Under the pieces are notes generated by a model. The model searched no databases. It worked only from the letters and a program-made list of their open reading frames with translations, and was not told the origin of the DNA. A program made the position numbers and the translations under genes. A DNA stretch of 64,000 bases. Source: Polycyclovorans algicola TG408. GTDB lineage: Bacteria; Pseudomonadota; Gammaproteobacteria; Nevskiales; Nevskiaceae. The DNA is taken from assembly GCF_000711245.1 (NCBI RefSeq), contig NZ_JOMH01000001.1:3528830-3592829 (forward strand), in the 5' to 3' direction. How positions within the stretch are numbered: position 1 is the first letter of the stretch; every line of letters begins with the position of its first letter. Positions 4,203 through 46,268 of this stretch are shown piece by piece.

Positions 4203-4205
4203 GCC

Positions 4206-18944: not shown

Positions 18945-19206
18945 TTCCCAACCTCTTTTCCATGTCACGGGATCGATGATGGACGTCCCCCGTCGCAGAT
19001 CACCCCTAGTACCTAGCTTTCGGAGAACCATCGTACAGCTTGGTTGACTCCCTAATCGCTTCCGCCAGCACCTCCCGAGGAATCTCCCGAGGAATCACCC
19101 CCTGCTGCCGAAAAATCACTTGCCCTTGGAAACGCAACAAAGCCGAGGGAAAGCCCATAAAACGGGCACTGTGACCAGACATACTGGCGAAACATCTCAT
19201 AAGGTT
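18945..19206 (-). promoter_or_regulatory. Intergenic region upstream of dpdE
   Basis: About 260 bp separates the AddA-like gene from dpdE and should hold the dpd operon promoter if the operon is not read through from addA. A 64-codon open frame (19006-19200) is present but has no ribosome site. I see no convincing -35/-10 pair, only a small direct repeat (gaggaatc twice, near 19080-19095). Confidence 0.3.
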
Positions 19207-22200: not shown

Positions 22201-22425
22201 AAACAGCTTGGCCTCGAGCAGGTGCCCTCGAACCCGCTCACGCAACTCACCGGCCGCCTTGCGGGTGAACGTGGTGGCCAGAATGCCGGCTGGCGCGAGC
22301 TCACCTGCAACCAGGCGTTCGCGCAGGATTTCGGTGAGCCGATAGGTCTTGCCGCTGCCGGCGCCGGCACTGAGAAACTTAATTCGTGGCGATGAGTGAG
22401 CGTCCGTCACGAGTTGGGCTCCCAT
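19207..22425 (-). CDS. addA: AddA-like UvrD helicase/nuclease
   Basis: A 1072-residue superfamily 1A helicase with a C-terminal nuclease, the AddA layout. Visible: Walker A AGAGSGKT (20-27), motif Ia FTRKAAGELRERV, Walker B VVDEFQDVSPLQL, GDIKQAIYGFRG (motif III), HHAAKGLEWPVV (motif V) and LYVSMTRARDLL (motif VI). A PD-(D/E)XK nuclease follows (GQIDLLI...VIIDHKTGY). It works with the AddB-like product of the upstream gene, which it overlaps by 19 bp, to resect double-strand breaks for recombination. Whether this is the chromosomal repair pair or a defence-associated one cannot be told from the window; it is co-oriented with the dpd operon. Confidence 0.9.
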   Translation of the reverse strand: MGAQLVTDAHSSPRIKFLSAGAGSGKTYRLTEILRERLVAGELAPAGILATTFTRKAAGELRERVRGHLLEAKLFDLANAMGESRIGTINAVCGELVQRFSFEIGLSPDLRVLDENESKRLLREALDETITPDERRQLTHLAWRFGLKEVDDNVHHIIAQARSNDLSADALREMGSRNSDACIAAFGHVPNEALEEDLKRVLDAQMPAFKEAVQSPKPVALTRTYLATIEKFRAELARDVPTWPEWAGLHTAKDPEKGLVPSADAIREAAGRFVHHPRFAADIREYLMLVFDLAARTLETYRDTKSRAGTLDFIDQEALLLHHLDQPLVHEALKEELQLVVVDEFQDVSPLQLAIFLKLSEIARESVWVGDIKQAIYGFRGSDTALMQSVIAALPQMQGVVQRMDHSWRQRPPLVALTNKVFTHAFRDSLSVEDVALVAQRPERTPELTAYEVWQLPGKNKAKRQADLILALNTLMAEGRQIPEKKGDGLKPLHWKDIAILVSANDSARDTGFALRRAGIPTALASHGLLQKPEAVLALACLRRLYDDRDTLATAEILSLAEVELPEQWLTERLRFNAIHEDSKARAGWREQDHGPDHPASPLLAAIGQLRRQRLSVLTPREALFAVMALADLGRVMARWSSCAEALRSRLANLDALLEMAKTYEDERVARDAPGSIGDFLLWMQTQANDKNDLEARTEANAVSVMTHHAAKGLEWPVVILFDLDKEIRNDLWSIRGEQVDALDISAPLASRFVRHWPWPFGDKKKVPAAQQVESTETGQQARKRALEERRRLLYVSMTRARDLLILAFNKPDFSKANWLAETTESPELLPDREDGEALLPSDWQVPSAFRVFNHEQAESTPDSRGVSQRPALMWPSLIAPTDAVRLPLITNPSSAEPVKASIVKTERYGAPLAVEKGSNAANVGNVVHAALAAAISQSRALEVNQLDALIRAEGVEVSLTAAGLYTTCNEVLAWLERTWPGCPRYAELPIDVRMPSGQICRGQIDLLIKSPTGWVIIDHKTGYRSSQMDDGTVSEYAGQLAVYRDVMGDPSAALWVLAPTLGSILQLARDS

Positions 22426-25127
22426 CCGACCAGATGGCGGTAGTCGTCATACATCGTCTTGGGCGGATCGGGCTCAAAGGCGCCCTCGGGAGCACTGCTG
22501 TCGTCGTCCTCGAGGCTCAGCGTGGCGTCAGCGATCACCTCGATACGACCAGCACCCAGCTGATCTCGACGCCATTGCCAGGTCTGCACCGCCTGCCTGC
22601 GGATCTCGGCCGGCGAGTCGGGCGTGCTCGGCGAATGAACTTCTGCTGCATCGAAGAAGCCTTGATGCTGCGCCAACATGGCCTGCTTGGAGAGGATGAA
22701 GTAGGCGGCCTCAGGCCAAAGCCCGTCTTCTTGGTCAGCGACCATTCCTGCGTAGAGCAACAGCTGCAGGTGTCGATTGCCCTTTAGCTGCTTGGCGCGA
22801 TCGTTTGCAGATCCCCATTTCATGTCGACGACTGCCTGCGCCCCATCGGCGCGCGTCAGCAGAAGGTCTGCATAGCCATGGAGACGGACAGCGCCGTCCG
22901 CGAAGCTTCCGTCCAGTTCTTTTTCGGGCAGTGCTTCCACGACTTCGGCCTTGCGCATGGCCTCCCACAACACCTCAGCGCTCTTGGCGACCTGCACCCG
23001 CAGGCGGCCGATCTCGCCGCCCTGGCCGGGCATCAGCAGAATGGCGCCCTTGGTCTCTACTAGCGTTTCCAGCGCTTCCAGAGCCCGGGCGGACACTTCG
23101 TCTGGTGACCATGACAGGGCATCCGGGCTGGACTTGAGCAGTGCCTCGACCACGTCGTGCGCCAGGGTCCCGAACAACAGCGGGCCGGATGGGATCGCAA
23201 GTACCTGCGATGGACGAATCTGTGCGCCGTAACGAAGCACCCACTGTTGCGGCGCGCTCAGATAGAGATCGATCGAGCTGTAGGAATCTTTGTCCTTGCG
23301 GCTGGTCGGCACGATGCCCGGCGGCAGCTGCCACCAGCGACGCGGTTCCGGCAGGGGCTCGTGGGTGACGGGCAGCAAAAACGCGCTTGTCTCCGCATCG
23401 GCTGCCTGCCCTTCAAGCAGATCGTCCAGTGAGGCGACTGGGAGGTTTGTCACGGCATGCTGCACCCACTGAAGCAGCGGATGCGCTTCTTCACTGTGGG
23501 CGGGAAGCACCAAGGTCAGGCGGGTGCGCGCCGCAAGCAACGGCCGGAGCACCTCGGCCTGCGCACGCTTGATCCGGTCGGCATGCCTGGGCAGCTCAAT
23601 GCCGGCCTTGAGCAGCTCGGCCCGTTCCCGCAACGTGTAAGGGTCTTTTGCCGGCAGGGTCATTTTTTCGAGGCCCCACCAGATCACCTCATCAGCCGAC
23701 TCGATGACCTGCGCCGGCGTATCGGCGACGCGACAGGCGCCAACTTGCGCGATACGACCCGGCGGCAGTGCGCCTTTTGAGGACGCTTGGCGCACGAGTT
23801 TTTGCAGAACACGCGGCTGAATCACCGTTTCGCCCTGAGCGGTCAACTGCCCAAGCCCGTCGAGCAGAGCCATGCACTGCTGAAACGCGGCCCCTTCACT
23901 CAAGCCGATGGTGCTGTCCTCGGACTTCAGTCCCAGGCGCTTGCGGAAGAACTCGCTAATCCGGTTCACCCGCTGGACTACATCCGAGATGGGCGCGCCC
24001 TCCTCCGGGCGATAACGCGTGCTGAACAACCAGAACTCGGCCTCGCGCACCATGGCATCGACGTCGATGCGCTGCTCTGGACGTTCCAGATTTTGGTCAT
24101 CGGCCTCTTTACGAATGTCAGCAAAGGTTTTGGCCAGATGATCCCGGTCAATGCCTGGCTGCGAGGCAATCTTGGTAGCCAGCCGACTGCGTGCCAGTCC
24201 CCTGATCGGACAGAGACCATGGGTGAGAAAGGCCACCAAGCCAAAAATATCGACGGGTTGCCACAGCTGCGTCAGCGCCAAGGGCAGCACCTGCAGCGCG
24301 GGTCGCATGGGGCTGGCATCGGCGAACCCAAGCGCGGGTTGCTGCTGCGCGCTGAGCAGATCATCCAATAGCTGGGCATCGTCCTCGACCAGCAGCACGG
24401 TGTCGTAGGGTGACGCTTGCGATTTCAGTTGATGGGCCAGCCACGCGCCGCTGAGCAGGCGCGAGCCGGCTTTGACGACGCGCACACTGCCGTCATCGAC
24501 ATAGCCCAGCGGCGCTGCGTCTGACTGCTCACTGGCAGAACTGAGCAGCCGTTGTTGCAGACCTTGCAAGAGCGTTCCTGCGCCAGCCTGCGGTGCGGGC
24601 GGCAGGTACTCGGTCGGCAGAACATTCAGGACAGCGCGCCACCGCAGCGGTAGTGATTCGGGGGCATCGAAGCAGTACAGCACTTCGATCGGGGTCTGCG
24701 CCGTCTGGAGTTCAGCCTCGAGGCGCATCAATCGCTCACCGATGCCGGGACTGACCTGGCCCTTGGCAAGCTGTTCGACCGCCGTCAGGTCCGCCATGCG
24801 GCCGGTGAAGAATGGGTGAGCATCGCCATTCCAGCCTTCGAGGTACCACTGATCCCGCCATCGCAACAGTCGCTCGGCCGTGCCCAGTTCATCGACCGTA
24901 AACGAGGCTTCAAAAAAGCAGCTAGGACGATCAGCAAGCGCCTGCTTGAGGTGCCGCCGGTACTGAACGGCGCGCTGCGCCTGAGTGACATTTGGCGCGC
25001 CGCATCCGAGATGGAGTTCCAGCAATGCCAGCAGGCCCAAGGGCCCCACCACGCTCTCGCCGGGGTTCTCCGCAGGGCAGATACTGCGGGCGCCGTCCAT
25101 GGCGCTACTGAAGCGTAGTCTCAGCAC
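22407..25127 (-). CDS. addB: AddB-like PD-(D/E)XK nuclease subunit
   Basis: A 906-residue partner of AddA. The N-terminal part carries helicase-like but degenerate segments, consistent with AddB, and no Walker A is visible. The C-terminal nuclease reads LHGYADLLL, then AVVDMKWG, then HLQLLLYAG, the PD-(D/E)XK signature with the QxxxY-like tail. The four-Cys iron-sulfur cluster of Bacillus AddB is not apparent around the nuclease. It starts with GTG preceded by gggaggcag. First gene of the addB-addA pair. Confidence 0.85.
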   Translation of the reverse strand: MLRLRFSSAMDGARSICPAENPGESVVGPLGLLALLELHLGCGAPNVTQAQRAVQYRRHLKQALADRPSCFFEASFTVDELGTAERLLRWRDQWYLEGWNGDAHPFFTGRMADLTAVEQLAKGQVSPGIGERLMRLEAELQTAQTPIEVLYCFDAPESLPLRWRAVLNVLPTEYLPPAPQAGAGTLLQGLQQRLLSSASEQSDAAPLGYVDDGSVRVVKAGSRLLSGAWLAHQLKSQASPYDTVLLVEDDAQLLDDLLSAQQQPALGFADASPMRPALQVLPLALTQLWQPVDIFGLVAFLTHGLCPIRGLARSRLATKIASQPGIDRDHLAKTFADIRKEADDQNLERPEQRIDVDAMVREAEFWLFSTRYRPEEGAPISDVVQRVNRISEFFRKRLGLKSEDSTIGLSEGAAFQQCMALLDGLGQLTAQGETVIQPRVLQKLVRQASSKGALPPGRIAQVGACRVADTPAQVIESADEVIWWGLEKMTLPAKDPYTLRERAELLKAGIELPRHADRIKRAQAEVLRPLLAARTRLTLVLPAHSEEAHPLLQWVQHAVTNLPVASLDDLLEGQAADAETSAFLLPVTHEPLPEPRRWWQLPPGIVPTSRKDKDSYSSIDLYLSAPQQWVLRYGAQIRPSQVLAIPSGPLLFGTLAHDVVEALLKSSPDALSWSPDEVSARALEALETLVETKGAILLMPGQGGEIGRLRVQVAKSAEVLWEAMRKAEVVEALPEKELDGSFADGAVRLHGYADLLLTRADGAQAVVDMKWGSANDRAKQLKGNRHLQLLLYAGMVADQEDGLWPEAAYFILSKQAMLAQHQGFFDAAEVHSPSTPDSPAEIRRQAVQTWQWRRDQLGAGRIEVIADATLSLEDDDSSAPEGAFEPDPPKTMYDDYRHLVGWEPNS

Positions 25128-25334: not shown

Positions 25335-25895
25335 TCACCCACGCTGCATAAGTGACGAGCGCGCAGACGCCGCAACGGACGCATCCTGATGCTTTGACAA
25401 TGCTCTGAGCAGAACCTTTGGCATGTGCGCCATCTCTGCGATCTGTTTCAGCATCGAAGGATCAGGTGATTCCAGAATCGCCTCGGTCAAGCTCGTGAGC
25501 GCGGCCTCGTCCGCGCTCCCGTCGTCATAGATGTCGTCAAGATAAATGATGATCTGCGTCAACAACCACCATCGCTGCTTGAGGGTTTCGGCCCAGCGCT
25601 CTGCACCAAAGGCAACCAAATGGTCCCTGACCCCTGCAGCTTCCGCCGCAACTTCAGGATGTGGGTCGTTGATAAGGGTCATCCAAGCCTCAAACGGCAG
25701 TGCGCCTTGCTGTGCAACCCTACGCCTCACTTCGAAGCTGGGGTGTCTGGCAAGCACGCTGAGGCCTTCACTCGACTCAGAGACGCACCCAACCAGAGCC
25801 GCGAGATCCCAGTTCGATCCTGGGTGCAGCTCGACTTCCAGACCATCGAGATTCACGGTGATGCGCATGGCGACTTCCAAGTGAGCATTGAGCAT
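25335..25895 (-). CDS. HEAT/ARM-repeat-like protein
   Basis: A 186-residue acidic, helical protein. Two short repeats near residues 45-90 (VLARHPSFEVRRRVAQQG, then LINDPHPEVAAEAA) and one near the end (ALSKHQDASVAASARSS) have the LxxDpxxxVRxxAA pattern of HEAT or leucine-rich-variant repeats. The first 30 residues form a separate strand-rich start. Such repeats mediate protein binding; no enzyme motif is seen. No obvious operon partner; the next gene to the right is in the same direction, 43 bp away. Confidence 0.65.
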   Translation of the reverse strand: MLNAHLEVAMRITVNLDGLEVELHPGSNWDLAALVGCVSESSEGLSVLARHPSFEVRRRVAQQGALPFEAWMTLINDPHPEVAAEAAGVRDHLVAFGAERWAETLKQRWWLLTQIIIYLDDIYDDGSADEAALTSLTEAILESPDPSMLKQIAEMAHMPKVLLRALSKHQDASVAASARSSLMQRG

Positions 25896-25938
25896 TCATG
25901 ATGCAGCGCTCATGCGTCAGTTTTGGACGTATTTCCGA

Positions 25939-27003: not shown

Positions 27004-27822
27004 CTAATCGTCTTCAAACGAATAAATAAGCTCCCCGAGAACCCCGCCATAGTCACGATCGCGAATCCAAGAAGACTCAATCTGCATGTCAGAGTTCTCC
27101 CATAAAGGCTCAGAAATTCTGGCAAGCACCCTTTTTTTTGTTCCCCGGGCGGGGGCCTCACGAACAAGGTAGTGAGCTGCCTCTATTGGCAATTTGAACC
27201 TTCCAGATTCAACCTCATTACGGTCTACACCAACAATTTTGTGTCCCCTTCGAAGTCCATTATCACTTAACAAGTACAAACTCCTAATTCCCTGATCAGG
27301 AAGTTCCGCCAAAGAGAATAGCGGCGGTGATTCTGAAGATATTATCCGATTTAACTCTGCCCGCACTGCATAATCAAGCAACTTGTCCAAACTCTTTGCT
27401 CCGTTCGGACGTCTACCGCTTAAAAGAAGACACTGTGATATCGAATAATAGCTGATTTCTTCAGTGCTAGTTACATGGTGGACTCTACTATCAACAAACT
27501 TATCCAGATCACCCGCCTCAGTCAGGCCGATGACGAGATCGCGAGCTGCCTTCGAAATAGCGGCGGTGCCATCAACCAGGACCTCCCAAGCGAAGGTGTC
27601 TACGATGTGCTCAGCGCGATTATATCTATCCCAAAGATGAAGAAGATAAACTAGGGCTTCATGCTCGATGGCTTGCGAGCGGCTCACTTTGCAGCCGTAG
27701 ATTTGGTAACAATCCACCCAATGGATTAAATCAAGATCAACGGTTTCTTTCACTGTTAAGTCCCTGTGTGCTCCATGAGTAGCGGCAATCCTAACGTTCA
27801 GGCTTCCTGCTTGTGACGCCAC
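27004..27822 (-). CDS. Hypothetical protein, 272 residues
   Basis: I do not recognise this protein. It is soluble, evenly charged and lower in GC than its neighbours, with mixed helix and strand. A central segment YSISQCLLLSGRRPNG and a C-terminal REAPARGTKKRVLAR are its most distinctive stretches. The proposed start is GTG with a ribosome-like gagg too close to it, so the start is uncertain. The lower GC suggests recent acquisition. Confidence 0.5.
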   Translation of the reverse strand: MASQAGSLNVRIAATHGAHRDLTVKETVDLDLIHWVDCYQIYGCKVSRSQAIEHEALVYLLHLWDRYNRAEHIVDTFAWEVLVDGTAAISKAARDLVIGLTEAGDLDKFVDSRVHHVTSTEEISYYSISQCLLLSGRRPNGAKSLDKLLDYAVRAELNRIISSESPPLFSLAELPDQGIRSLYLLSDNGLRRGHKIVGVDRNEVESGRFKLPIEAAHYLVREAPARGTKKRVLARISEPLWENSDMQIESSWIRDRDYGGVLGELIYSFEDD

Positions 27823-27993
27823 CCTCAGAATTAGGATTTACAACCAGCCGAGTCGAATCTGATAACGGCACGCCGGCTCGCGAAGAGCCGATACAACCAA
27901 GAGCATACTCATACGATGCGCCGGGGGCTCATTTGACAACAGAGATAGCATCGCATCGATACACGTCACTATCGGTCGTATATCTCACAGAGA

Positions 27994-28481
27994 TCAATGA
28001 TGCTTCAGATCACAAAAATCGAAGTTGATCTGCACGGCGTCTGCCTGCTTCGTACACGTCCAGTGCGCCCCCAGATCGAACCCTGCCCCTTCGACCATGG
28101 TGGCGAGCTGCTGGGCATTTAGATGCTCGACCAGGTCGGCTCGAAACGTGATCGTGTGGCCCCGAATGCCGCTCCACTCCCAGCATAGGCACCGGCTGCC
28201 TACTGCACCGGGGGAAGTCCATCGTAGCTTGCTGAACGTCCGTCAATTCGGATACGCCTTTCGACAATCAGCCGGTCAAATCCGTGTTCAACAGGCCGTA
28301 GGTTGGTGGCTGCCTCAGCTTGGCGATGCAGCGCGTGTATCGCCCGCCTGACCCATCTGCCCGGCAGACAGAGCCCCGCCACCCTTCTGCACCATCTGGC
28401 GATCGCACTCATCAGACCGCGGACGGATTGGCGGCGGATCATCGCCAAACGGTCCTGTGTTAGGAACATTGCCTGATCCAC
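27994..28481 (-). pseudogene. Frameshifted relative of the 29162-29524 gene
   Basis: Two overlapping frames carry the parts. The first (28481 down to 28200) starts MDQAMFLTQDRLAM and stops. The second frame continues to a stop at 27994 with WEWSGIRGHTITFRADL, then LNAQQLATMVEGAGF and VQINFDF. This second part aligns with the C-terminal half of the protein at 29162-29524 (WHWDGISGSTLIF, LSGEDLKRLVEGEG, VFFNFAF). The second frame has no usable start of its own. Seen: shared pattern in two frames. Inferred: an old duplicate broken by a frameshift. Whether the first frame belongs to the same gene is unsure. Confidence 0.55.
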
Positions 28482-28484: not shown

Positions 28485-28985
28485 CTAGGGCTCCCGCGTC
28501 TTAATGGTTGAAGCTCCCGTTGAGAGGATTAGCCCTTCTCCCTCAGTCAGCGTTGTACGCATTGGAGTGGACACGGAAGGCTCACCCTGTCGATCAAGCG
28601 TCGCTGCAGGGGACATGGGCTCCCGAGGCAACCGAACGACATAGGTGTCCTGATCGAACTTGGAGAGACTGCCGGTCCCCATGTCGACGGCAAGGCCAAT
28701 CAATCCGCCGACGAGGATGTTTCCCCACACCCAGCCATTGGAACCCTTCCCAGGGTGGAGAATCGTGTCTTCAAAACCTTGCCGCCTGAGAACAAAGCTC
28801 GGGCTCTCCTTGCGTTTGAGGTTCAGCGTGAGCGGCGTAACCCCATAGCTCGCGCCATTTCGCGTCACCGTCGCACCACTGGGCTCAGACAGAATCGTGA
28901 TGTCCTGAGTCGAGCCTGTCACGATGGTTGCGCAGCCATTGAGCAGCAGCACGCTGGCGACTGCCGAGACCATTTTTATTTTCAC
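28485..28985 (-). CDS. Lipoprotein with PEGA-like domain
   Basis: A 166-residue envelope protein. Signal peptide and lipobox MKIKMVSAVASVLLLNGC, followed by ATIVTGSTQDITILSEPSGATV, the PEGA-like beta module with the typical EPSGA turn, then a small glycine-rich hydrophobic helix (WGNILVGGLIGLAVDMGTG) as in many envelope lipoproteins. The last 45 residues are Thr/Ser-rich. PEGA modules often bind peptidoglycan or other surface polymers; the exact function is unknown. It ends 3 bp before the start of the pseudogene on the same strand. Confidence 0.78.
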   Translation of the reverse strand: MKIKMVSAVASVLLLNGCATIVTGSTQDITILSEPSGATVTRNGASYGVTPLTLNLKRKESPSFVLRRQGFEDTILHPGKGSNGWVWGNILVGGLIGLAVDMGTGSLSKFDQDTYVVRLPREPMSPAATLDRQGEPSVSTPMRTTLTEGEGLILSTGASTIKTREP

Positions 28986-29161
28986 GCCGACACTCCCTTG
29001 TGCGGTGCCGGAACGTGCCCCCGGCGGTCCGCAATGAACGGATCGCCATGGTGGTGTTGGACTACGTCAGTTTCGGACGTCTCTCTGCTCGGGATCTGAA
29101 GCGGTCAGTCCAGCGAGATTTCGGTCAGCATTTCTTTATCGCCATTGGTTGCGCCAGTCCC

Positions 29162-29524
29162 TCAGGCATCAAACGCGAAGTTAAAGAAGACCTGTCCCGC
29201 ATGTTCGGTTCGCGTCCAGTCCTCTCCAACGATTACGCCCTCACCCTCAACGAGTCGCTTGAGATCCTCACCCGAGAGCGTTGCCATGTCGGGCAGCAAG
29301 AAGATCAGGGTACTGCCTGAGATGCCGTCCCAATGCCAGCGCTGGTACCGAGCACGGTACCCAGCGAAAGTTACTTCCCGGTCACAACTCAGTCGGTCAT
29401 AGTCCTGTGGAGACTGCACATCATCGGGTTGAACTCGAAGCTCAACTGCGCCCTGCAGTGCGTCATGCAACTCATGAGCAGAATGGCGAACTGCGATGTC
29501 ATGCCAAACCTTAAACCGTGACAT
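29162..29524 (-). CDS. Small partner of the double-AAA ATPase, unknown
   Basis: A 120-residue protein of no recognised family, with aromatic residues concentrated in YQRWHWDGISGSTLIF and a C-terminal VFFNFAFDA. The ATG at 29524 sits inside the last codons of the upstream AAA gene (14-bp overlap), so the two are translationally coupled and the proteins probably work together. A decayed paralogue of its C-terminal half lies 0.7 kb downstream. Possible roles are substrate or adaptor of the ATPase; the sequence does not decide. Confidence 0.65.
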   Translation of the reverse strand: MSRFKVWHDIAVRHSAHELHDALQGAVELRVQPDDVQSPQDYDRLSCDREVTFAGYRARYQRWHWDGISGSTLIFLLPDMATLSGEDLKRLVEGEGVIVGEDWTRTEHAGQVFFNFAFDA

Positions 29525-31607
29525 GACGTTGCTCCGGCGCTTGCGTGGCAACGAATCCGATGTCGTGACGAGTCCCCTCGCGCTCCCGGCTGATCTCAGC
29601 AAGATCGCGGAGCACCCGCGATGTGTCTGGCGTGATGCTAAGAACGGTATAGCGCTGGTTGATCCTCGTCATGTCAGCAGGCACCAATCCCCTTGGAATG
29701 TGCCGAATGTCGGTCTGAAAGCCCCACTGCGTTTTGATGATCTTTTGCGATTGAACGCGCGTCATGGGGTCGAAGCGAAGCTGAAACAGGAACCGGCGCA
29801 ACGCCGCGGAATCAATACATTCAAGGTGATTGGTGGTGCAGACGATGGGGATGGGGTGTTGCTCGAGGTGCGTCAGCAGCTCATTTACCAGGGTGCGCTC
29901 CCAAGTTTTTGAGTCCGCACGTCGCCCGGAGAGAAAGCTGTCCACCTCATCGATAACGAGCAGTGACTGATCGCGGATTGCCTGCCTGAACGCTGCAGCG
30001 AGTTGCTGCTCGCTTTCGCCCACCATCGGCGCGAGGACGTCAGACGGACGAAGCAGGTGAACCGGCATGGCGAGTTGCTCACCGAGGTGCCGCGCATAGA
30101 GCGACTTTCCAGTACCCGGAACGCCTGATATCAGAATCGAAAGCGGCGACTGGCGAAGGGTCTCACGACAGCCTTGAAGCTCCCTAAGTAGCGCCCAGTC
30201 AGGACTCCGACAGTTGATCCGATCCGCGTCGAAGCAAGGGGCGCCGCTGCCAGATTCCATAGATGCGTCAGCTCGGGGTGCGATCAGCGAAACCAAGCCG
30301 CTGATCACCTGCTTCAGGTCTGGGTCGGCTGTCCCACCGGCAAGACTGACGGTGCGCATCGCGTTGTGGGCAATGGCGGGTGACAGGCGCGCGTCGCCCG
30401 CACAGCGGGCAAGCGTTTGCTCGATACCCGTCAGCCGATTTGTGGACGCGGCATCGTTCCAGATGCGCTGTCGCACACCCAATGGCGGCGGATTCATTTC
30501 AATCACCACGCTCATGCGCCGCAGGATGGTGTTCGGGAGCTGTGTAGCGTCGTTCAACACCCAAATGACCGGGCAGCGGTTGGTTTCCAGCAACCTGTTC
30601 AGGTAGACCTTCGAGCCCGTGCCGGTCACCCGACGCGCACCAAAGAGCCTAGCAAGTTCCATCCCTTCGGCGCCGAGCACATCATCGGCTTCGTCTGCCA
30701 TCAGCAGCGCCTGCCGTCCCCCCAGCAACCGGTCCGAAAGCTTCAGGCTCGCCAAGCGCTCACTACGGGTTGGCTCAGCCCCGTATTCATCAGACTCTGC
30801 TGCCAGGAACAGCGGAACGCCTATTGAACGGGCGAGCGATTTGACGAATTCGGTCTTCCCCGTGCCCGGTGAGCCTTGGATCAGCACGTTGATCCCGCGC
30901 TCTTCCCGGTCGAGCGCCCCGAGCAGCATTCGCTGCAGCAATGGCGCGCCATCGACATGACTTGATACTTCTTCCCACTGCAACGTTGCATCGACCGGGC
31001 GCCCGAGCAGGCAGGCAGCAATGTCACTTACCTCGCCGCCACCGGACGACTGCGCGAACCAGGTCGTGACACGGCTGGACATCCGACATTCACCATCAGC
31101 GTCGACGGTTGCCAGTCCGTTTTCAATGATGGCGGCGTTGTCGCAAAGGCTTCGCCGAAGACTCGCTGATCCAACATTAAGAATTGTTGCCATCAGTCCC
31201 ATGACACGCGCATCAGAGGTGTAGAACCCCATCACGTCGATCGACGTCATCAAGCTCTGCAGTGCCCCGCCCATCTGACAATGTGCCAGGTGATCCAGCA
31301 GCGAGACCTCGTGTGCCTGCAACGCAAATCGGCTTTGCAGTGTTTGCAGCTGAACAAGGTGATTTGCGTGCGCCGCTTCGCTGGACTCAACAGCCGCGAG
31401 AAGACGTGTGCTGCGCCTGACGAGCTCCGCCGCTGATCGCTCGATGGCGTCGTCAGCACAGCCAGTTTCAGTGCCGTTGCTGTCCGCGTCGTAACTCAGC
31501 TCGATAGCTGACAGGGCGTTATCGAGGGCGTCCAGATGGCGTCTTGAATGAACGCTCGCGGACAGACGGGCAATGGCGCGCAAGGCAAGCAAGTCGGTGT
31601 AGATCAT
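29511..31607 (-). CDS. Double AAA-domain ATPase
   Basis: A 698-residue protein with two AAA modules. First: Walker A QGSPGTGKT (about 244-252) and Walker B ALLMADEADDVL (300-311). Second: Walker A SGVPGTGKS (494-502) and Walker B LLVIDEVDSFL (549-559), with a sensor-like CTTNHLECID. About 230 helical residues precede the first module. The tandem arrangement is like Cdc48-type unfoldases, but the sequence is not close to any standard member I know. It is coupled to the small gene downstream. Its promoter region is shared with a metallophosphatase gene on the other strand and carries a motif also found before the WYL regulator. Confidence 0.85.
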   Translation of the reverse strand: MIYTDLLALRAIARLSASVHSRRHLDALDNALSAIELSYDADSNGTETGCADDAIERSAAELVRRSTRLLAAVESSEAAHANHLVQLQTLQSRFALQAHEVSLLDHLAHCQMGGALQSLMTSIDVMGFYTSDARVMGLMATILNVGSASLRRSLCDNAAIIENGLATVDADGECRMSSRVTTWFAQSSGGGEVSDIAACLLGRPVDATLQWEEVSSHVDGAPLLQRMLLGALDREERGINVLIQGSPGTGKTEFVKSLARSIGVPLFLAAESDEYGAEPTRSERLASLKLSDRLLGGRQALLMADEADDVLGAEGMELARLFGARRVTGTGSKVYLNRLLETNRCPVIWVLNDATQLPNTILRRMSVVIEMNPPPLGVRQRIWNDAASTNRLTGIEQTLARCAGDARLSPAIAHNAMRTVSLAGGTADPDLKQVISGLVSLIAPRADASMESGSGAPCFDADRINCRSPDWALLRELQGCRETLRQSPLSILISGVPGTGKSLYARHLGEQLAMPVHLLRPSDVLAPMVGESEQQLAAAFRQAIRDQSLLVIDEVDSFLSGRRADSKTWERTLVNELLTHLEQHPIPIVCTTNHLECIDSAALRRFLFQLRFDPMTRVQSQKIIKTQWGFQTDIRHIPRGLVPADMTRINQRYTVLSITPDTSRVLRDLAEISREREGTRHDIGFVATQAPEQRHVTV

Positions 31608-31662
31608 CGATCTCTCCGTTGTGAAAGGGCCTTGGCGAATGAGAGAAGCCTAGATCGGCACC

Positions 31663-31689
31663 ACGTCAGATTCGGTCGTTACCCCGTGC
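31663..31689. promoter_or_regulatory. Putative WYL-regulator site, copy 1
   Basis: A 27-bp stretch in the 118-bp gap between the ATPase and metallophosphatase genes. It begins ACGTCA and contains GGTCGTTAC, ending GTGC. It matches a stretch before the WYL gene at 21 of 27 positions by hand alignment. A regulator site is inferred from this match and from location between two divergent starts. Confidence 0.5.
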
Positions 31690-31725
31690 GATCATCTGCG
31701 GACCGGACTTACACGTTGCTCAACG

Positions 31726-32766
31726 ATGAACGTTATCCAAAAGCTGCCAGAGGGCGCCCTTGATGTTGTGGGTGATGTCCACGGCGAATGGAGCGCGCTG
31801 CGGGCGCTGCTCGCACATCTCGGCTACCGGGAGGACGGCACCCACCCAGACGGGCGAACACTGGTCTTCGTCGGCGACCTTGTGGATCGAGGCGAGAGCA
31901 GCCCCGCCGTGCTGGATTGGGTGCTTCCCAAAGTTGCCGATGGTCGGGTGGTGTGCGTCATTGGCAACCACGAGCTGAACCTGATCCGTGGCGATGCAAA
32001 AGAAGGCAATGGCTGGTTCTTTGAGCCGAACCACGACCATGCTGAGGGCAAGTTTCGGGATGCGCCGGCGTTACCGCCAACCAAGCGCACCGAAGTCGTT
32101 GCGCTGCTCGACCGCCTGCCGATCGCCGCTGAGAGGTCCGACCTCCGGATCGTCCACGCGTGCTGGGATCCGGTATCGCTGAATGAGCTGACAACAACCG
32201 CGGCACATTACAGCGGATGGTCCAGCTGCTTTGATCATTTTCAGCGCCGTCTCGACGAGCAGCTTCGTGCCGTGGCCGCCCAGTCCGGTTTTGAGGAAGA
32301 ATGCCGACGGTTTGACCAACTGCGTGAACTGCCTACCGATGAACTGGGACTGCACTCACCCGCCGATTACCCACTGCTCGCGCGGTATCAGGCGCTAGAG
32401 CAAAACGGCAACCCCGTCAGGGTGCTGACTTCAGGGAAGGAAGAAATGAGCGGAGAGGTCTTCCACGCCGGCGGCAAGCCCCGCTTACTTCGGCGGGTTC
32501 ACTGGTGGGACCGATACGCCGACCAAGTCGCCGTCGTTTACGGGCATCACTGGCGGAAGGCAACAAATGCCCAGGGACCCGACCATTGGTATGGCGCCCA
32601 AGGATCGCGGCCCAGCGCTTACTGCGTGGACTTCTCTGTAGGCAGTCGTTTCGACAAACGAGCACAAGGGCAAACCGACTTCAGCGAGTGCAGGCTCGGC
32701 GCCGTCCGGTGGCCCGAGGCGATCGTGATGTTCGACGATGGGGAGTCAGTTCAGACGCAGCGGTAG
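31726..32766 (+). CDS. Calcineurin-like metallophosphatase
   Basis: A 346-residue phosphoesterase of the PPP/ApaH-like type: GDVHGE (16-21), GDLVDRG (50-56), GNHELNL (80-86), and later HACWDP and YGHHW, which give the remaining metal ligands. Such enzymes cleave dinucleoside tetraphosphates, phosphoproteins or small nucleotides. The substrate cannot be read from sequence. It is about 100 residues longer than typical ApaH. It converges with the cyclic-phosphate-processing receiver gene (119-bp gap), and it is transcribed away from the AAA gene. Confidence 0.85.
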   Translation: MNVIQKLPEGALDVVGDVHGEWSALRALLAHLGYREDGTHPDGRTLVFVGDLVDRGESSPAVLDWVLPKVADGRVVCVIGNHELNLIRGDAKEGNGWFFEPNHDHAEGKFRDAPALPPTKRTEVVALLDRLPIAAERSDLRIVHACWDPVSLNELTTTAAHYSGWSSCFDHFQRRLDEQLRAVAAQSGFEEECRRFDQLRELPTDELGLHSPADYPLLARYQALEQNGNPVRVLTSGKEEMSGEVFHAGGKPRLLRRVHWWDRYADQVAVVYGHHWRKATNAQGPDHWYGAQGSRPSAYCVDFSVGSRFDKRAQGQTDFSECRLGAVRWPEAIVMFDDGESVQTQR

Positions 32767-32885
32767 CGGTGGCGCGAACCGCTGAACAGACTCTTTCGTC
32801 GGTTTCGAGCGAGTCATGGGGTCACCGCATCGATGACGACGATCCGCACGCGCCAACAGCATGGGCTTGCCATCAAGACTCGCCG

Positions 32886-33194
32886 CTATTGCGAGCCCCC
32901 GCGCGCAGCCATCAACGCAGTGATGCTCTGGATGCCAAGGGCCATCTTTTGTCTGGCGGACGAATTGGCTGAGTGAACGAGAACGCGAGGGGCGATGAAA
33001 CCTCGCGTGGCGACCGCTTCTTCAATCCACAGCACAACGTCATATCCCGTACCGCGCGCATCGTCACCGAGGTCATGGTCCAGGCTGATCTCCGTGACAG
33101 CGCCGGTTTCCAGCAGCGCGATGGCCTCATCGGGCCAGTAGACCCTGTCCCAACCGCCTGGCGTCTGACGCTCGTCATCCAAGAACACTTTCAC
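32886..33194 (-). CDS. Cyclic-phosphate-processing receiver-domain protein
   Basis: A 102-residue stand-alone receiver-fold protein. LDDERQTPGGW (5-15) and SLDHDLGDDARGTGYDV carry the acidic and histidine pattern of the cyclic-phosphate-processing receiver family, with VHSAN near the end. These are proposed to act on cyclic phosphate nucleotide or RNA ends instead of phosphorelay. It lies 62 bp downstream of the WYL regulator gene on the same strand and may be co-transcribed. The nearby phosphatase fits a nucleotide-end or nucleotide-signal theme, which is inference. Confidence 0.85.
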   Translation of the reverse strand: MKVFLDDERQTPGGWDRVYWPDEAIALLETGAVTEISLDHDLGDDARGTGYDVVLWIEEAVATRGFIAPRVLVHSANSSARQKMALGIQSITALMAARGGSQ

Positions 33195-33256
33195 TGAGGC
33201 GCTTCCCTCTTGAGAGCCGGCTGAAAGTGCATTTGGCCGGTGGCCTCTGAGCCAAG

Positions 33257-34276
33257 TCAGAGATCAGTCGGAGCATCCGCTGGAGTCCGAGTATGTATCG
33301 CCGATCCGTGGCGCCGCCGCAGTTCAGCCGGCTCAACCACTTCAACCGAGTCGCCCCAGGTGTAGAGGTGCCAGTCCATTTCTTGGATGCCCCCACAGCG
33401 GAAGCGCACATGGAGGCTGCCGTCGTCACCCCACTCCGTGACTTGAGTTGGATGAAAGATGAACTCAGCGGCATCCTCGGCTGCTTCAGGTTTGAAACGC
33501 CAGTGAACGTTAACCGCATCTTCCTGCCAGATCCCGAAGGCCCGATCCGCATGGCGCTGCAGATTAAATTTGGCGGGCTTTATAACTGCATGCCGGAGCA
33601 GCTCAGCGTGTTCGATCCTGCCGAGAATGAAGTACTTCGGTGCGCCTCCTGGCGTTCGACTACCAACCAGGTAGTGCCGATGGCCGTAGAGCAAGCCATA
33701 GGGATGGAGATCGTAGGTACGAAGGACATTGGTCTTTCGGTACCGGTACTGCACCCGCACGACCCGCTGTTGCTGCAGCGCCTCACGAATGACCGCCAGC
33801 GCATCGGTCGAGACCCTGACGCGAGGACCCGGCCGTAGCGCAAGCCCTTCTGCAATGGTCAGCGCTTCGACTTGCGGTTCCAGCGCCCTCTGCTGTTCGG
33901 GTTGGAGGAGGCTGTTGAGCAACCCGCGGAGGCGCTCGAGGTTCTGCGCCTGATCGACGAGCCCCTCTTGTTCCAGCAGTTTGCGGCCGGTTTCAAGGCT
34001 CGCAAGCATCACGGGGTCGATCTGATACAGGCCACGCAGCCATGAAGACCGTATGCGCCATCGCTTGGTGTTGTTAGCCCCCACCAGCTCTTCGACTTGG
34101 TCGGGGAACACCCTGAGCACAGCGTCCCTGAGCCGCTCGGCAGTACGCCTGGAGATCGGCTCATCCGAGTACCCCTCGGCGATATCCTGAAGGGACAGCC
34201 CCTGCGAGCGCCCCTGCATGTCCATCGCAATCTGGAGCATCACCTCGGCCTTTTCGTAGCGCATCGGAACCGTCAT
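33257..34276 (-). CDS. WYL-domain transcriptional regulator
   Basis: A 339-residue regulator. The N-terminal 70 residues form a winged HTH (SLQDIAEGYSDEPISRRTAER). The WYL domain spans about 165-225 with RVVRVQYRY, YDLHPYGLLYGHRHYLVG, and a beta-rich C-terminal extension (WYL-C) follows. Members sense nucleic acids or nucleotides and control defence and repair genes. It is likely autoregulated: the upstream gap holds two ACGTCACT repeats and a motif shared with the AAA/phosphatase promoter. The cyclic-phosphate receiver gene lies downstream. Confidence 0.9.
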   Translation of the reverse strand: MTVPMRYEKAEVMLQIAMDMQGRSQGLSLQDIAEGYSDEPISRRTAERLRDAVLRVFPDQVEELVGANNTKRWRIRSSWLRGLYQIDPVMLASLETGRKLLEQEGLVDQAQNLERLRGLLNSLLQPEQQRALEPQVEALTIAEGLALRPGPRVRVSTDALAVIREALQQQRVVRVQYRYRKTNVLRTYDLHPYGLLYGHRHYLVGSRTPGGAPKYFILGRIEHAELLRHAVIKPAKFNLQRHADRAFGIWQEDAVNVHWRFKPEAAEDAAEFIFHPTQVTEWGDDGSLHVRFRCGGIQEMDWHLYTWGDSVEVVEPAELRRRHGSAIHTRTPADAPTDL

Positions 34277-34298
34277 CGAATAAGTCTTGCGAAAGGTT

Positions 34299-34335
34299 AC
34301 GTCACTTTTGGTCGTTACATGGTGCTAACGTCACT
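34299..34335. promoter_or_regulatory. Putative WYL operator, copy 2
   Basis: Just upstream of the WYL gene. It contains two near-direct copies of the sequence tacgtcact/aacgtcact, about 29 bp apart, and between them GGTCGTTAC. The first 27 bases match the site at 31663. Inferred autoregulatory operator. Confidence 0.5.
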
Positions 34336-34455: not shown

Positions 34456-35085
34456 ATGAACAGAACCTTGACTTACGATTTTTGTGCCCTGAGATACTTG
34501 AACCAGTGGCTCGAGAATGAACGGCGATTGACCTCTAATGCCTCGAAAGGGGCAACCGAACTTGAAAACTCAATGAAGGAGTCGGTTAGCTACTTCTCAG
34601 TTGCCAGAAGTCTAAGAATTTCGTCAGAGGATATCTACAAAAATCGATTCAAAATAATCAGCAAAATCATTGACGCGCCAACAAACAATCCAGGCAGCAA
34701 ATCAGTGCCTGAGGTTGCTAGTATTGTCGAGGCAACCGAAAACAAATTGCGAATCGCCCTTTCGATAAATAGCAAGCTATTATCACTAACCAGCAAACTG
34801 TTGTGGGTGCGCTGGCAGGGGAGCTTTAGAATCTATGACAAACAGGCGCGCGTCGCACTCAAACTGAGCACAAGCTGCACGATTCAGGATTTCTTCGCGG
34901 AATGGCAGAAGCTCTATCTAACCCATCAGATGGGCATATCAGAGGCTTGCCTCGCTCTTGAAAAAGTCAGAAACTACTATTTCGACCCAGATGCTATGTC
35001 AAATGAAGAATTCCATAACCTGATCGAGTCGGAGTGGTTTAAGCAACGCGTGTTTGATATCTACATCTGGGAGCTTGGCCGCTAG
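34456..35085 (+). CDS. Hypothetical protein, low GC
   Basis: I do not recognise this 209-residue protein. It is helical and lysine/serine-rich, with short conserved-looking patches RISSEDIYKNRFKIISK and WQGSFRIYDKQARV. GC is near 43%, well below neighbours, so it is probably a recent import or a phage/plasmid gene. The ribosome site is weak. No operon partner: the next 200 bp hold no gene, then a strong hairpin. Confidence 0.6.
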   Translation: MNRTLTYDFCALRYLNQWLENERRLTSNASKGATELENSMKESVSYFSVARSLRISSEDIYKNRFKIISKIIDAPTNNPGSKSVPEVASIVEATENKLRIALSINSKLLSLTSKLLWVRWQGSFRIYDKQARVALKLSTSCTIQDFFAEWQKLYLTHQMGISEACLALEKVRNYYFDPDAMSNEEFHNLIESEWFKQRVFDIYIWELGR

Positions 35086-35290
35086 AAAGATTGTATTAGA
35101 CGCCGAAGCAGCGTGCCATTACATGGGCCAAACAGCCTCCTTTGTTGGCTCTCTTCAGCTTTACAACAACTTTCAATTCAATTTAATCAAGCACCTATCG
35201 ACATCAAAACCACACCAATGGCCAACTTTCCTCAACGAACAGGCCAAACGAGGTTGCGTTGCAAATTTAACGAGATTTCGGTCATCTTAA

Positions 35291-35326
35291 ACCCCAACCA
35301 GGTGCGCTTCCGCACCTGGTTGGGGT
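35291..35326. terminator. Strong hairpin, likely terminator
   Basis: A perfect 16-bp stem (accccaaccaggtgcg and its complement) with a cttc loop, after the low-GC plus-strand gene. A T-run is not immediate on the plus strand (gacacgaaaagttt follows), so the stem may also be a recombination or regulatory hairpin. It lies between plus- and minus-strand genes, the normal place for a bidirectional terminator. Confidence 0.6.
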
Positions 35327-35404
35327 GACACGAAAAGTTTCTTTTCAAGATTCTGGCGACAGGGAATAAGGCTCGATCACGAGCCCCGAACCATAGAATC
35401 ACCC

Positions 35405-35821
35405 TTAGTATTCAAACTTTACGTGTAAAGGCCAACTCTCACTCACCTGACCAAGGGAGTCGCCATCGAACCCATCGGTCATGTAGACGAATTCCCCATC
35501 GTCATCATCGGCTTTTTTGATGAGCTCCACCCCCTTCTCTGTAAGAGTGAACGAATCCTCGTCATCTGAAAAGGCGCCACAGATTCCCATCATCTCATTG
35601 AAGATTTCAGAGTGCTCATGCTCTTCGATGTCATCGAACTCCAGAACACTTTCTTCATCATTTTCAACATCGATGAAGAAGAATCCACTCTCGTGCTCTC
35701 CCCCACCAATGAATCAAAAATAGGCTCCTACGATCAAATTGCCATCTTCACCCTCAACATCTTTATACGCAATAGCAGTGTGAAATTGTTTATCTGATGT
35801 GGCTCGCAAATACAGTTCCAT
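35405..35821 (-). pseudogene. Small acidic protein gene with in-frame TGA
   Basis: A good ribosome site (aggag, 6 bases before ATG at 35821) starts an acidic frame (MELYLRATSDKQ) that meets TGA at codon 36 (35714-35716) and then continues to a normal stop at 35405, 138 amino-acid positions in all. Downstream of the TGA the frame still codes for a plausible protein (FIGGGEHESGFFFIDVEN). Read TGG instead, codon 36 would be Trp. Either a recent nonsense mutation, a sequencing error or a rare readthrough; no selenocysteine signals were identified. Family unknown. Last of four small minus-strand low-GC genes. Confidence 0.55.
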
Positions 35822-35903
35822 AAATTCTCCTGAAATTAATGTCATGAATGAACTGGAGTGCAGGTTTCCTGCACTTTCCTCTCAAACCGGCTCGGGGCAA
35901 ACA

Positions 35904-36320
35904 CTAAGATATCTTTGGTTTTTTAACACTTGCCTCAAGAACCTTAAAGCCGTCTCCAGATGGAAAGCTTTCACCGAGTATCCAGAACTGCTCTACCTCA
36001 ACCTGAAGCCCACCACCCTTGAACTTATCCAACACAGCTTTGGGGACATTAGCTATGAACACCCCACCTGCTGAGACTGTTAGGGAACTCCCATTCAACA
36101 ACCAACCGAGAGATCCCGCTACCGCATCATCGGGCTTAATCGACGCATAGCCAACAATTTCACTGGCATTACCTTCCCTCAGAGCAATGCTCAGGGAGAC
36201 AGCCTTCAACTTAAATCTTGTCGCCTCCTCGAGCTTCTGCGGGTTAGAAAAAATATCGACAACCTCTTTCTCAACCTGCTCTGAGCCCTGACCGACAATA
36301 TTCAAATATATCTTTGGCAT
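35904..36320 (-). CDS. Hypothetical protein, low-GC cluster
   Basis: A 138-residue protein I do not recognise. It begins MPKIYLNIVGQG and contains Gly-rich strands (SLGWLLNGSSLTVSAGGVF). No signal peptide or metal motif. It lies in a run of four short minus-strand genes with weak ribosome sites and low GC. Confidence 0.5.
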   Translation of the reverse strand: MPKIYLNIVGQGSEQVEKEVVDIFSNPQKLEEATRFKLKAVSLSIALREGNASEIVGYASIKPDDAVAGSLGWLLNGSSLTVSAGGVFIANVPKAVLDKFKGGGLQVEVEQFWILGESFPSGDGFKVLEASVKKPKIS

Positions 36321-36348
36321 GTTTTGTTCCGCTCGAAATAGAATTGGG

Positions 36349-36507
36349 TCAGATCAAACCTTCATTTTCAAGTTTCTCGACCAGATCCTCGTCAGTGATC
36401 AAGGCCATTCCGCCAATCTGCTTTACAACGTCCTCAGGGGATATGCCATTCTCAATGCAGGCGTTGTACCAATTGCCGAAGATTTCGTTAGCCTCATCAT
36501 GCGTCAT
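36349..36507 (-). CDS. 52-residue hypothetical protein
   Basis: A small acidic protein (MTHDEANEIFGNWYNACIEN start) with a strong ribosome site (aaggag, 7 bases before ATG). It is shorter than the usual ORF cutoff. Helical, one Cys, ending EKLENEGLI. It lies 28 bp before the 138-residue gene and is probably co-transcribed. The small size and acidic charge would fit an immunity or antitoxin-like protein, but nothing proves it. Confidence 0.5.
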   Translation of the reverse strand: MTHDEANEIFGNWYNACIENGISPEDVVKQIGGMALITDEDLVEKLENEGLI

Positions 36508-36568
36508 ATCACACTCCTTGTTGGAACTGCATCAATGATTTACCGCTTTATTTGCTTTACATCGAAGA

Positions 36569-36793
36569 TTACGTTAGCAACTCGCCATCAAAGTAAACAT
36601 CCACATCGGGAAGTTCTATTGCATTTATAGAAAGCGAGAGCGTGCATCCGCTGGGCTCGCAATCCGAATTTATTTCTTCTGTAGTTTTTCGTCCGATCGA
36701 TTCTTGCCAAACTCGCGTTAAACCCGGTGAGAGTCGGATCACTGCGCTGCCATTAGATTCAATGATGAGGGTCGCTTTATTTTTTTCTTTCAT
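36569..36793 (-). CDS. 74-residue hypothetical protein
   Basis: A small beta-rich protein (TLIIESNGSAVIRLSPG, VDVYFDGELL) with no signal peptide and no family I know. Its ribosome site is weak. It begins the run of four small minus-strand genes of low GC. Confidence 0.42.
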   Translation of the reverse strand: MKEKNKATLIIESNGSAVIRLSPGLTRVWQESIGRKTTEEINSDCEPSGCTLSLSINAIELPDVDVYFDGELLT

Positions 36794-37337
36794 CTTTTGT
36801 CAGCCATTTAGAGAATGGTTACAGCCAAGGACCTCAATTCACGGGCTTATATATAACTCCGCGACTTGAAGCGCCCAGATGCGGCGTGTCGTTCGGTTGG
36901 CACGCCTGTGCCTTCTGGATACTCCGACAAGATGGCCGACATGCTGATCTCGTCAACGGATTGTTGCAGCAGACCCAAAGCATTGACGACCATCGCTGTA
37001 ATCACGGCAATTTAGCGGTGTAGATTCATGCCATCACGATCCCATGCTGCCACGTCAAAAATGGTCGTGCCTTGCCAATCGGCACGTACCTTGATTGGCT
37101 GGCCAAGCCTTGAGCGTTGCTGGCCCATGTATAGACGACTCAAGCCGTAGCTACAGTGCTAACGGTCGCAGAGCTAACCGCGCCATTGAGCTACCCGACT
37201 TTACCCTGAACGACGCAGTCATTGCGATATCGGTTGATGGCGATTCACCGTGACACATCAAACGGTTCTTAACTGCATCCCCCACTGCGTTGAACACCGC
37301 CATCAAGGTCGAGTGTCGCGAACTAATGGGGAGTGTG
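36794..37337. other. Non-coding stretch, nothing seen
   Basis: About 540 bp without a credible gene on either strand. Several short frames overlap and none has a ribosome site together with a sensible composition. No repeat or tRNA-like fold was found. The GC rises back to island average here. Confidence 0.4.
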
Positions 37338-43522: not shown

Positions 43523-44452
43523 TCACTCTGAAACGAGCGACTCCTGCATGACCTCAAGCAGTTGTCGGGTCAGGCGGTAGATGCCGGGTCGTTTCGATTC
43601 ACGCGGGCCGGCAACGTTCAAGATTTGAATTCCGTGCCTGCGCAGCCAGGCAACTACGGCGAGTGCGTTGTGCGCGTGAACACCGTCATCAGCTTGCAGA
43701 ACCAGGCAAGGTTTGCCCAACTTCTGCGCGAAGACTTTTGTGGCGTAGGTGCCGTCGCTGAGTTCACCAATATTAACGATCAGCGTGCCGTCGCTGTCTG
43801 CCACATTTCGGCGGGTCCGCTGCCGGTAGCCGCCATCAGTGACTTCTGTGAGCTGGTACTTCAGGGCGATGGCGCCGTCCTCTGCTGCGCGCCCGCGTGG
43901 CGCCCAGCCACCGTGGACATAACGATGCAGGATTGCAAAATCCAGGGCTGCGCGATCAGCCCCTGTCTGACCGCCAGAAATGATCTTCTCGCAAAAGCGG
44001 ACAGGTTCCTTGTCGGCATTTCGATGCACGGCAAGCGGCTTGAAGTTGCCGATGCGCTCAATTTCAGTGCGCTCATCAACTCGATGATTGGGGTCTTCAA
44101 CGGGTTTTTCGTAAATCACGCGATAGGCGCTACCGACCTCCTCCTTCAACCATTGAGATAGCTGCAGCCCGCGGGCATGGAAGACGCGCCAGTCCCAGTC
44201 GGCGTCATCGAATTCGGCGGTAAAGAATGATGTCCGGTCAAAATCAATAGCCCAGTCAGCGAACTTCCGCCATAGTCCTTCTGACATTGGGAACGAGGGG
44301 TCCCAAGAGCTGCCATCACAAATATTTGGGCCGACCCCGTCTCGCCCCCCATCGCGACTGATCCACAGAAATGGCGCATTTCCATACTCCGCCATAACCG
44401 TAAGGATGGGGACCTCCGTGTTGGTGGGACCGGTTCGGTTGTCGTCATTCAT
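43523..44452 (-). CDS. SLOG/YpsA-like nucleotide-binding-domain protein
   Basis: A 309-residue protein. The C-terminal half (about 155-300) carries KIISGGQTGADRAALDFAI, GGWAPRGRAAEDGAI, TRRNVADSDGTLIV and GKPCLVLQ, the signature of the YpsA/putative-molybdenum-carrier branch of the SLOG superfamily. The N-terminal 150 residues are of unknown type. SLOG domains bind nucleotide-like ligands and occur in conflict systems. It overlaps the upstream 574-residue gene by 4 bp (ATGA), so they form an operon. Confidence 0.75.
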   Translation of the reverse strand: MNDDNRTGPTNTEVPILTVMAEYGNAPFLWISRDGGRDGVGPNICDGSSWDPSFPMSEGLWRKFADWAIDFDRTSFFTAEFDDADWDWRVFHARGLQLSQWLKEEVGSAYRVIYEKPVEDPNHRVDERTEIERIGNFKPLAVHRNADKEPVRFCEKIISGGQTGADRAALDFAILHRYVHGGWAPRGRAAEDGAIALKYQLTEVTDGGYRQRTRRNVADSDGTLIVNIGELSDGTYATKVFAQKLGKPCLVLQADDGVHAHNALAVVAWLRRHGIQILNVAGPRESKRPGIYRLTRQLLEVMQESLVSE

Positions 44453-46173: not shown

Positions 46174-46250
46174 CTCTCTTCCTCGGGAGGCTCTTGCATT
46201 GAGTGTCGCCATGATGGCGAATCGGTCGCAGTTGCTAAATTGCGTGTTCT

Positions 46251-46263: not shown

Positions 46264-46268
46264 TACAC

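Follow-up and report, generated by a model that had tools for sequence, protein, structure and literature searches.

Which genes does a WYL-domain regulator control when it lies beside a tandem AAA ATPase, and what does it sense? The question is raised by positions 29162-34335 of a 64,000-nucleotide stretch of Polycyclovorans algicola TG408 (contig NZ_JOMH01000001.1, positions 3,528,830 to 3,592,829; the whole stretch is hereafter called the window), where genes for a WYL regulator, a cREC protein, a metallophosphatase, a tandem AAA ATPase and a small partner protein lie together. Defence islands often carry WYL regulators, and we know of no ligand for most of these. We propose, with a probability of about 0.62, that this locus forms the centre of a regulon of the DriD type that is triggered by single-stranded DNA (ssDNA), lies on an island and controls a Cdc48-like unfoldase.

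All five genes are present, with strong Pfam domain matches and intact catalytic motifs, as they had been grouped in the original prediction made from the DNA. The regulator gene (33257-34276, - strand, with a second possible start ATG at 34264) encodes a winged helix-turn-helix (wHTH), a helix-bundle linker, a WYL domain (Pfam 3.2e-11) and a WCX domain (3.3e-12). Downstream of it, after a 62-bp gap, lies the cREC gene (32886-33194, - strand; cREC_REC, PF20274, 7.2e-27), encoding a predicted cyclic-phosphate-processing protein of receiver fold. The metallophosphoesterase (31726-32766, + strand; Pfam 1.4e-12) is ApaH/PrpE/Pnkp-phosphatase-like and has its metal motifs GDVHG, GDLVDRG and GNHE intact. 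The tandem (type II) AAA ATPase (29511-31607, - strand) is matched by Pfam in two stretches (1.8e-29), and its stop is overlapped by 14 nt by the open reading frame of the partner (29162-29524, - strand), an orphan of 120 aa whose likeliest start is the ATG at 29524. The layout has to be corrected on one point: the phosphatase gene is on the + strand, so that it and the AAA gene point away from each other on either side of a 118-bp gap, and WYL and cREC form a - strand pair of their own. PADLOC calls no system here; its models match only the AAA domain (IetA models) and the WYL protein (CRISPR-associated WYL models). The original prediction knew of no named system with this combination.

The regulator resembles a single protein of solved structure. 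Five distinct chains matched it at E<=0.01, all of one sequence, that of DriD; the best were 9pfq_Q (4e-53) and 8tp8_A (1.6e-52), aligned over the full length (residues 1-320 of the query to 1-314 of the chain) with 38% identity (120 of 313 aligned residues). No BrxR, CapW or PafBC chain was found among the solved-structure matches at this threshold, and no relative of the WYL protein among viral contigs. Entry 8TP8 is DriD of Caulobacter (PMC11804915), and 9PFQ appears in PMC12340889. The wHTH, helix bundle, WYL and WCX architecture of DriD is found in full, and the presumed recognition helices (helix assignment ours) are nearly identical, RRTAERLRDAV here and RRTAERMRDAV in DriD. Of five residues in the three-helix bundle (3HB) through which DriD contacts RNA polymerase, R121, P125 and E128 are kept and R120 and R122 are not, as read by us from the alignment with a deduced numbering offset of 4. 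Judged by sequence, the regulator is a full-length homolog of DriD and probably an activator of the same type.

According to PMC12340889, DriD is activated by ssDNA bound at its WYL domain and recognises the operator ATACGAC-N7-GTCGTAT, which overlaps the -35 element; the driD promoter works in both directions, and the targets of DriD in Caulobacter include recJ and bapE. By analogy, ssDNA would be the ligand of the WYL protein studied here, which would activate rather than repress. The original prediction had pointed to nucleotide signals and RNA/DNA ends; as far as the sensor goes, a cyclic-phosphate or RNA-end signal becomes the weaker reading, since all five structure matches are DriD, an ssDNA sensor.

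In the AAA protein, Walker A (GSPGTGKT, GVPGTGKS) and Walker B (DEAD, DEVD) are intact in both domains, and two AAA domains with these motifs form invariant columns across 11 proteins. The best family profile matches were Cdc48/VCP, NVL, Rix7 and AFG2, and a structural model of moderate confidence (pLDDT 70.6) gave Cdc48-class proteins as best Foldseek matches (E 3.4e-17; TMq 0.23-0.28); because overall TM-scores are low, only the class (Cdc48/NVL/Rix7) is assigned. Since both profile and model point to these proteins, protein unfolding is the likely activity. The motor shares with Cdc48/p97, NVL, Rix7 and AFG2 its two AAA domains with intact Walker motifs and its best sequence and fold matches, but has no known adaptor, and its helical N-terminal part is modelled at low confidence.

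Are the five genes kept together elsewhere? Relatives of the AAA protein were collected from 58 genomes of the taxonomic family, from the class (24 of 369 genomes at E<=1e-25, own genome included), from plasmids (19 of 72,556 records; 14 regions were read), from 84,980 species genomes (at least 80 loci, of which L102-L125 were used) and from viral contigs (at least 18 loci, of which L182-L188 were used). The resulting set of 74 loci draws on the matches listed and leaves out six chromosomal paralogs; the loci are unequal in length and several are ended by contig ends, so that co-occurrence counts are a lower bound. With a WYL profile that was itself grown on these loci, a regulator of this lineage was found within 1 kb of the AAA gene in 27 of the 74, within 5 kb in 36 and anywhere in the stretch in 37, as compared with none of 20 random 20-kb windows drawn from these genomes and none of 56 loci around other AAA proteins. 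This WYL-AAA neighbourhood is kept on plasmids and in genomes. The related genome of locus L037 carries WYL (58% identity), phosphatase (32% over 159 residues) and AAA genes together, the last two divergent as in the window, on a contig that ends inside the AAA gene.

The expectation of a conserved neighbourhood therefore holds for the WYL-AAA core (36/74 within 5 kb against 0/20 random windows) and fails for the set of five. The five genes as a conserved unit were rejected: searches with cREC and with the partner gave no co-occurrence, neither being found in any other AAA locus examined, and the phosphatase occurs in six AAA loci, the window included (relatives in L037, L089, L112, L184 and L204). 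On plasmids, three records carry a phosphatase relative, one of them a Pnkp that matches a quarter of it, and in the record from Diaphorobacter the AAA gene lies about 5 kb off. The partner shows no significant relative in Pfam, PADLOC, NCBIfam, solved structures or plasmids, and its model is poor (mean pLDDT 52). In the 339-genome class sample it was found in two genomes, its own and one with a weak match containing two stops. Its own genome holds a decayed partial copy (about 28015-28287, - strand) with two TGA stops. Recurrent neighbours in the AAA loci, in clusters named by the Pfam match of one member or, for AddA, AddB and phosphatase, after the protein of the window, were DUF2779 (13 loci), ADP-ribosylglycohydrolase (ARG, 8), AddA (8, window included), AddB (7, with the window outside the cluster), phosphatase (the 6 loci above), Sir2 (4) and MoxR/vWA (3).

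If the regulator is of DriD type, are its operators present? A first relaxed search of the window for CGAC-N7-GTCG with 1 mismatch found 44 sites against 48.6 expected, hence no enrichment. Four of these hits share a longer core, ACGTCA-N5-GGTCGT, which has the DriD geometry (ACG, nine bases, GTCGT; spacing 7) and ACGTC as left half where DriD has ACGAC. This core was picked after viewing the window, and its counts in the window and the genome are thus not blind. With up to one mismatch the window holds six such boxes (four exact and two with one mismatch, one of the latter inside the AddA-like gene) for 0.31 expected, and none of 100 shuffles had as many as six. The genome (3.65 Mb) has seven exact cores, four intergenic ones lying within 9.1 kb in the window and three intragenic ones elsewhere.

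Because the window core was post hoc, the published DriD consensus and a matrix built from relatives were also used. Within 250 bp upstream of the AAA gene, leaving out AAA genes that were cut by contig ends or uncalled, the published consensus was found at p<=0.05 in 17 of 34 loci with a WYL gene within 5 kb and in 4 of 27 without; after dereplication the counts were 16/29 and 2/21 (Fisher p=8.5e-4). In 9 of 17 cases the centre of the box is 48-71 bp before the start codon of the AAA gene, a position compatible with the -35 overlap known from DriD that does not prove activation. For the density of boxes over whole loci, the consensus was relaxed by one position per half after the upstream result had been seen (boxes matching at least 12 of 14 positions), and two loci with cut AAA genes (L038, L039) were excluded. 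There were 49 boxes in 37 WYL-AAA loci (81.5/Mb), 4 in 35 AAA loci without WYL (7.5/Mb) and 1 in 20 random windows (2.5/Mb); once 12 near-duplicates were removed, 44 remained in 32 WYL-AAA loci and 3 in 28 loci without WYL. Spacing is specific, with 49 sites at N7 and 1-8 at each of N3-N6 and N8-N11. By our own count, 41 of the 49 boxes lie outside called genes, and the gene downstream is AAA in 16 loci, WYL in 4, ARG in 3, AddB in 2 and the phosphatase in 1 (L037). Six plasmid loci that have such a WYL gene and no AAA gene in the stretch still carry boxes (5 in 101,562 bp), which indicates that the box goes with WYL rather than with AAA alone. The operator type of DriD is thus conserved before the AAA gene in distant genomes.

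Three boxes matching the relaxed consensus at 14 of 14 positions (L098 12362, L101 14600 and L110 13375) belong to AAA-WYL loci, where they lie before genes without identification or have no called start nearby; they point to candidate further regulon members. Two sister genera carry chromosomal tandem-AAA paralogs of 673 aa (L031-L036). In L031 the gene is flanked by dnaX/ybaB and by a gene with a TsaD domain (Pfam was run on L031 alone, and the others were judged by gene order). As a conserved neighbourhood of the kind described here these six were rejected, since they resemble a housekeeping locus, and all six are without WYL and without a significant box upstream under the published consensus.

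The relatives' matrix, made from 18 sites upstream of AAA genes in other genomes only, was scored over the whole window. Among its top five sites, four are intergenic candidate boxes (25912, 27961, 34297 and 29062), and the fifth lies inside DpdJ. At a score of 15 or more, two sites were found in the window and none in 400 kb of random windows; since only this threshold separates the two, the boxes at 25912 and 27961 are the best supported. The first (25912-25932, score 18.9, the best of the window) has its centre 27 bp upstream of gene 25335-25895 (- strand), beyond which, at about 207 bp, an AddB/AddA-like pair starts that perhaps shares this promoter. The second (27961-27981, exact core, score 16.6) lies upstream of a hypothetical gene (27004-27822, - strand; G+C 47% against 59% for the window) and adjoins the decayed partner copy. 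The box upstream of WYL-cREC (34297-34317, exact core, score 11.6) has its centre 31 bp from the WYL start codon. Another (29062-29082, one mismatch, score 11.0) is upstream of a PEGA-domain gene (28485-28985, - strand), and the box in the gap between AAA and phosphatase (31661-31681, exact core, weak score of 7.7) is centred some 64 bp before the start codon of the AAA gene. The last candidate (37050-37070, exact core at 37052) falls outside the best 25 matrix sites and lies about 267 bp upstream of small - strand genes (36793-35904). Control by the WYL protein, as originally proposed, is supported: an operator of the right type recurs before the WYL-cREC pair, in the gap that divides AAA from phosphatase, and before other genes. 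Separately, the small genes at 34456-37070, around two of the boxes, are low in G+C (44-47% against 59%) and are possibly recent cargo.

Several results weigh against our proposal. Genome-wide at 1 mismatch, the window core is found 28 times and its reversed control 27 times, so that only the cluster of boxes stands out. The box before the AAA gene at 31661 matches the published consensus at 9 of 14 positions by our own count; with its matrix score of 7.7, it stands out only by its recurrence in the window, through a core chosen post hoc. Matrix scores of 12 or more do not separate the window (2 sites in 64 kb) from random windows (6 in 400 kb), and the scores at 34297 and 29062 may be due to chance alone. 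Two of the polymerase-contact residues of DriD, R120 and R122, are not kept in our alignment. The Caulobacter DriD targets named in the available part of PMC12340889 include no such AAA protein, and, with 37 of the 74 AAA loci lacking a WYL gene in the stretch read, the AAA gene can occur without it.

How could such a regulon work? Gene content, homology to DriD, the repeated operator and its conservation before the AAA gene are computed observations, and we infer the substrate of the unfoldase and its role in defence or DNA repair. ssDNA fragments from damaged or degraded DNA would bind the WYL domain and switch the regulator on. The active protein would then bind the ACG-N9-GTCGT boxes and raise the AAA-partner pair; its boxes would also drive WYL-cREC, the PEGA-domain gene, gene 27004 and the group of small genes, and, from 25912, gene 25335 and perhaps the AddB/AddA-like helicase-nuclease. 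The two-ring unfoldase would strip or remodel proteins on damaged or invading DNA, in cooperation with the variable nucleases encoded alongside, and phosphatase and cREC may serve as accessories that clean nucleotide or RNA ends. A defence role is plausible because Dpd genes adjoin the locus here and PD-(D/E)XK nucleases elsewhere. We suggest more tentatively that the whole forms a mobile, SOS-independent immune or damage regulon, in which plasmids and islands carry a DriD-like switch triggered by ssDNA together with a Cdc48-like unfoldase and interchangeable helicase-nucleases; ssDNA from chewed invading or damaged DNA would then raise the machinery that handles proteins on that same DNA.

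Could the locus instead repair RNA, or process ADP-ribose or cyclic phosphates? The WYL ligand would then be cyclic-ended RNA or a derivative of ADP-ribose, and cREC and phosphatase would clean such ends once a toxin or phage has done damage, in the way predicted for WYL/ARG-centred systems. The cREC domain is indeed predicted to act on cyclic phosphates (PMC9503650), and the closest cREC of the class sample (L259 9158-14450), a very similar gene, has two RlaP genes (PF10127) side by side at a distance of about 3.3 kb, which hints that this cREC lineage belongs with RNA repair elsewhere. ARG occurs in eight AAA loci and Sir2 in four, an RtcB gene follows the AAA gene in Methylomonas, and a macro-domain gene lies near it in Rhodoferax. 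No other AAA locus examined has a cREC gene, however, and the three of seven plasmid cREC regions that were read hold mostly hypothetical genes, and neither WYL nor AAA is annotated there. Among the 18 window genes scanned, Pfam found no RNA ligase, RtcB/RtcA or RlaP beside cREC and no ARG, and the ARG cluster of the relatives does not include the window. As the regulator is DriD-like and the ligand of DriD is ssDNA, we consider this explanation unlikely; the RNA-end theme looks accessory.

That the WYL protein is a repressor in the manner of BrxR or CapW, holding down a toxic or costly AAA effector until phage infection frees it, is to us similarly improbable. WYL repressors are found in defence islands (PMC9122601), and the box centred 31 bp from the WYL start codon could be autoregulatory, but all solved-structure matches at E<=0.01 are DriD, and the place of the boxes at 48-71 bp before the AAA gene, although no proof of activation, is compatible with -35 overlap. 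Least probable of all, and in our view quite unlikely, is a chance assembly of five unrelated cargo genes at one site of a hypervariable island. cREC and partner do show no conserved link, and in seven related (sister) genomes the phosphatase is present at eight loci where the stretches read show neither WYL nor AAA. For WYL and AAA, chance is largely refuted by their linkage (36/74 against 0/20 and 0/56) and by the shared operator.

The proposed regulon can be set beside systems already described. It shares with the DriD regulon of Caulobacter crescentus the full-length regulator with its near-identical presumed recognition helix, the operator geometry ACG-N9-GTCGT, a box in a divergent promoter and a DNA-damage theme (targets recJ and bapE, PMC12340889). 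It differs in that the targets named in the available text comprise no tandem-AAA, phosphatase or cREC gene, and in that the regulator here travels with its targets on islands and plasmids. ARG-centred WYL/Nudix systems are predicted to combine WYL with phosphatases, restriction endonuclease (REase)-fold nucleases and helicases (PMC9503650), which partly overlaps with the relatives of our locus, ARG included. The window, on the other hand, has no ARG and a DriD-like regulator, and tandem AAA proteins go unmentioned in the part of that article at hand. IetAS consists of a full-length IetA and a protease-like IetS. PADLOC IetA models match the AAA protein (1e-23), but in the AAA domain alone; the NCBIfam IteA score is 68.9 for a cut-off of 510, no protease-like partner was found and the partner present belongs to no family, so that membership was rejected.

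The surroundings are taken as a genomic island. To the left lie the AddB-like PD-(D/E)XK nuclease (22407-25127, - strand; PDDEXK_1, 6.9e-20), with relatives in the AAA-WYL loci L069, L070, L072, L075, L104 and L108 and a broken one in L109, and the UvrD/AddA-like helicase (19207-22425, - strand; PADLOC UvrD-helicase models), which also has relatives in AAA loci. Further left, a Dpd cluster for 7-deazaguanine modification of DNA (7-deazapurine in DNA) was found by PADLOC at 1666-19031 (DpdD, DpdJ, DpdH, DpdG, DpdF). It adjoins the locus, has no site of the best 25 of the relatives' matrix between its genes, and is treated as a separate system. DpdE-like and DpdI-like genes, and QueD/QueE-like genes at 20-1540, were named by eye. 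Right of the locus are umuDC-like genes (by eye) and an SRAP protein. Still in the window, a cpYpsA/SLOG-domain protein (43523-44452) forms a - strand two-gene pair with 44449-46383, and a phage-integrase-family protein (62433-63929) at the right end may mark an island boundary.

DriD and type II AAA proteins are each known; among the matches listed for the openly licensed literature, no paper was found on the WYL-AAA pairing or on a DriD-type regulon around a tandem AAA motor on mobile islands. Sequence comparison was enough to place one WYL lineage in the DriD type and to yield an operator that can be tested, and unrelated plasmids and genomes have this kind of operator before the same AAA motor. 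If our proposal is right, ssDNA sensing serves mobile elements as an alarm of their own, and a bacterial motor of Cdc48-like type that seems not to have been studied becomes a candidate effector against DNA damage or phages.

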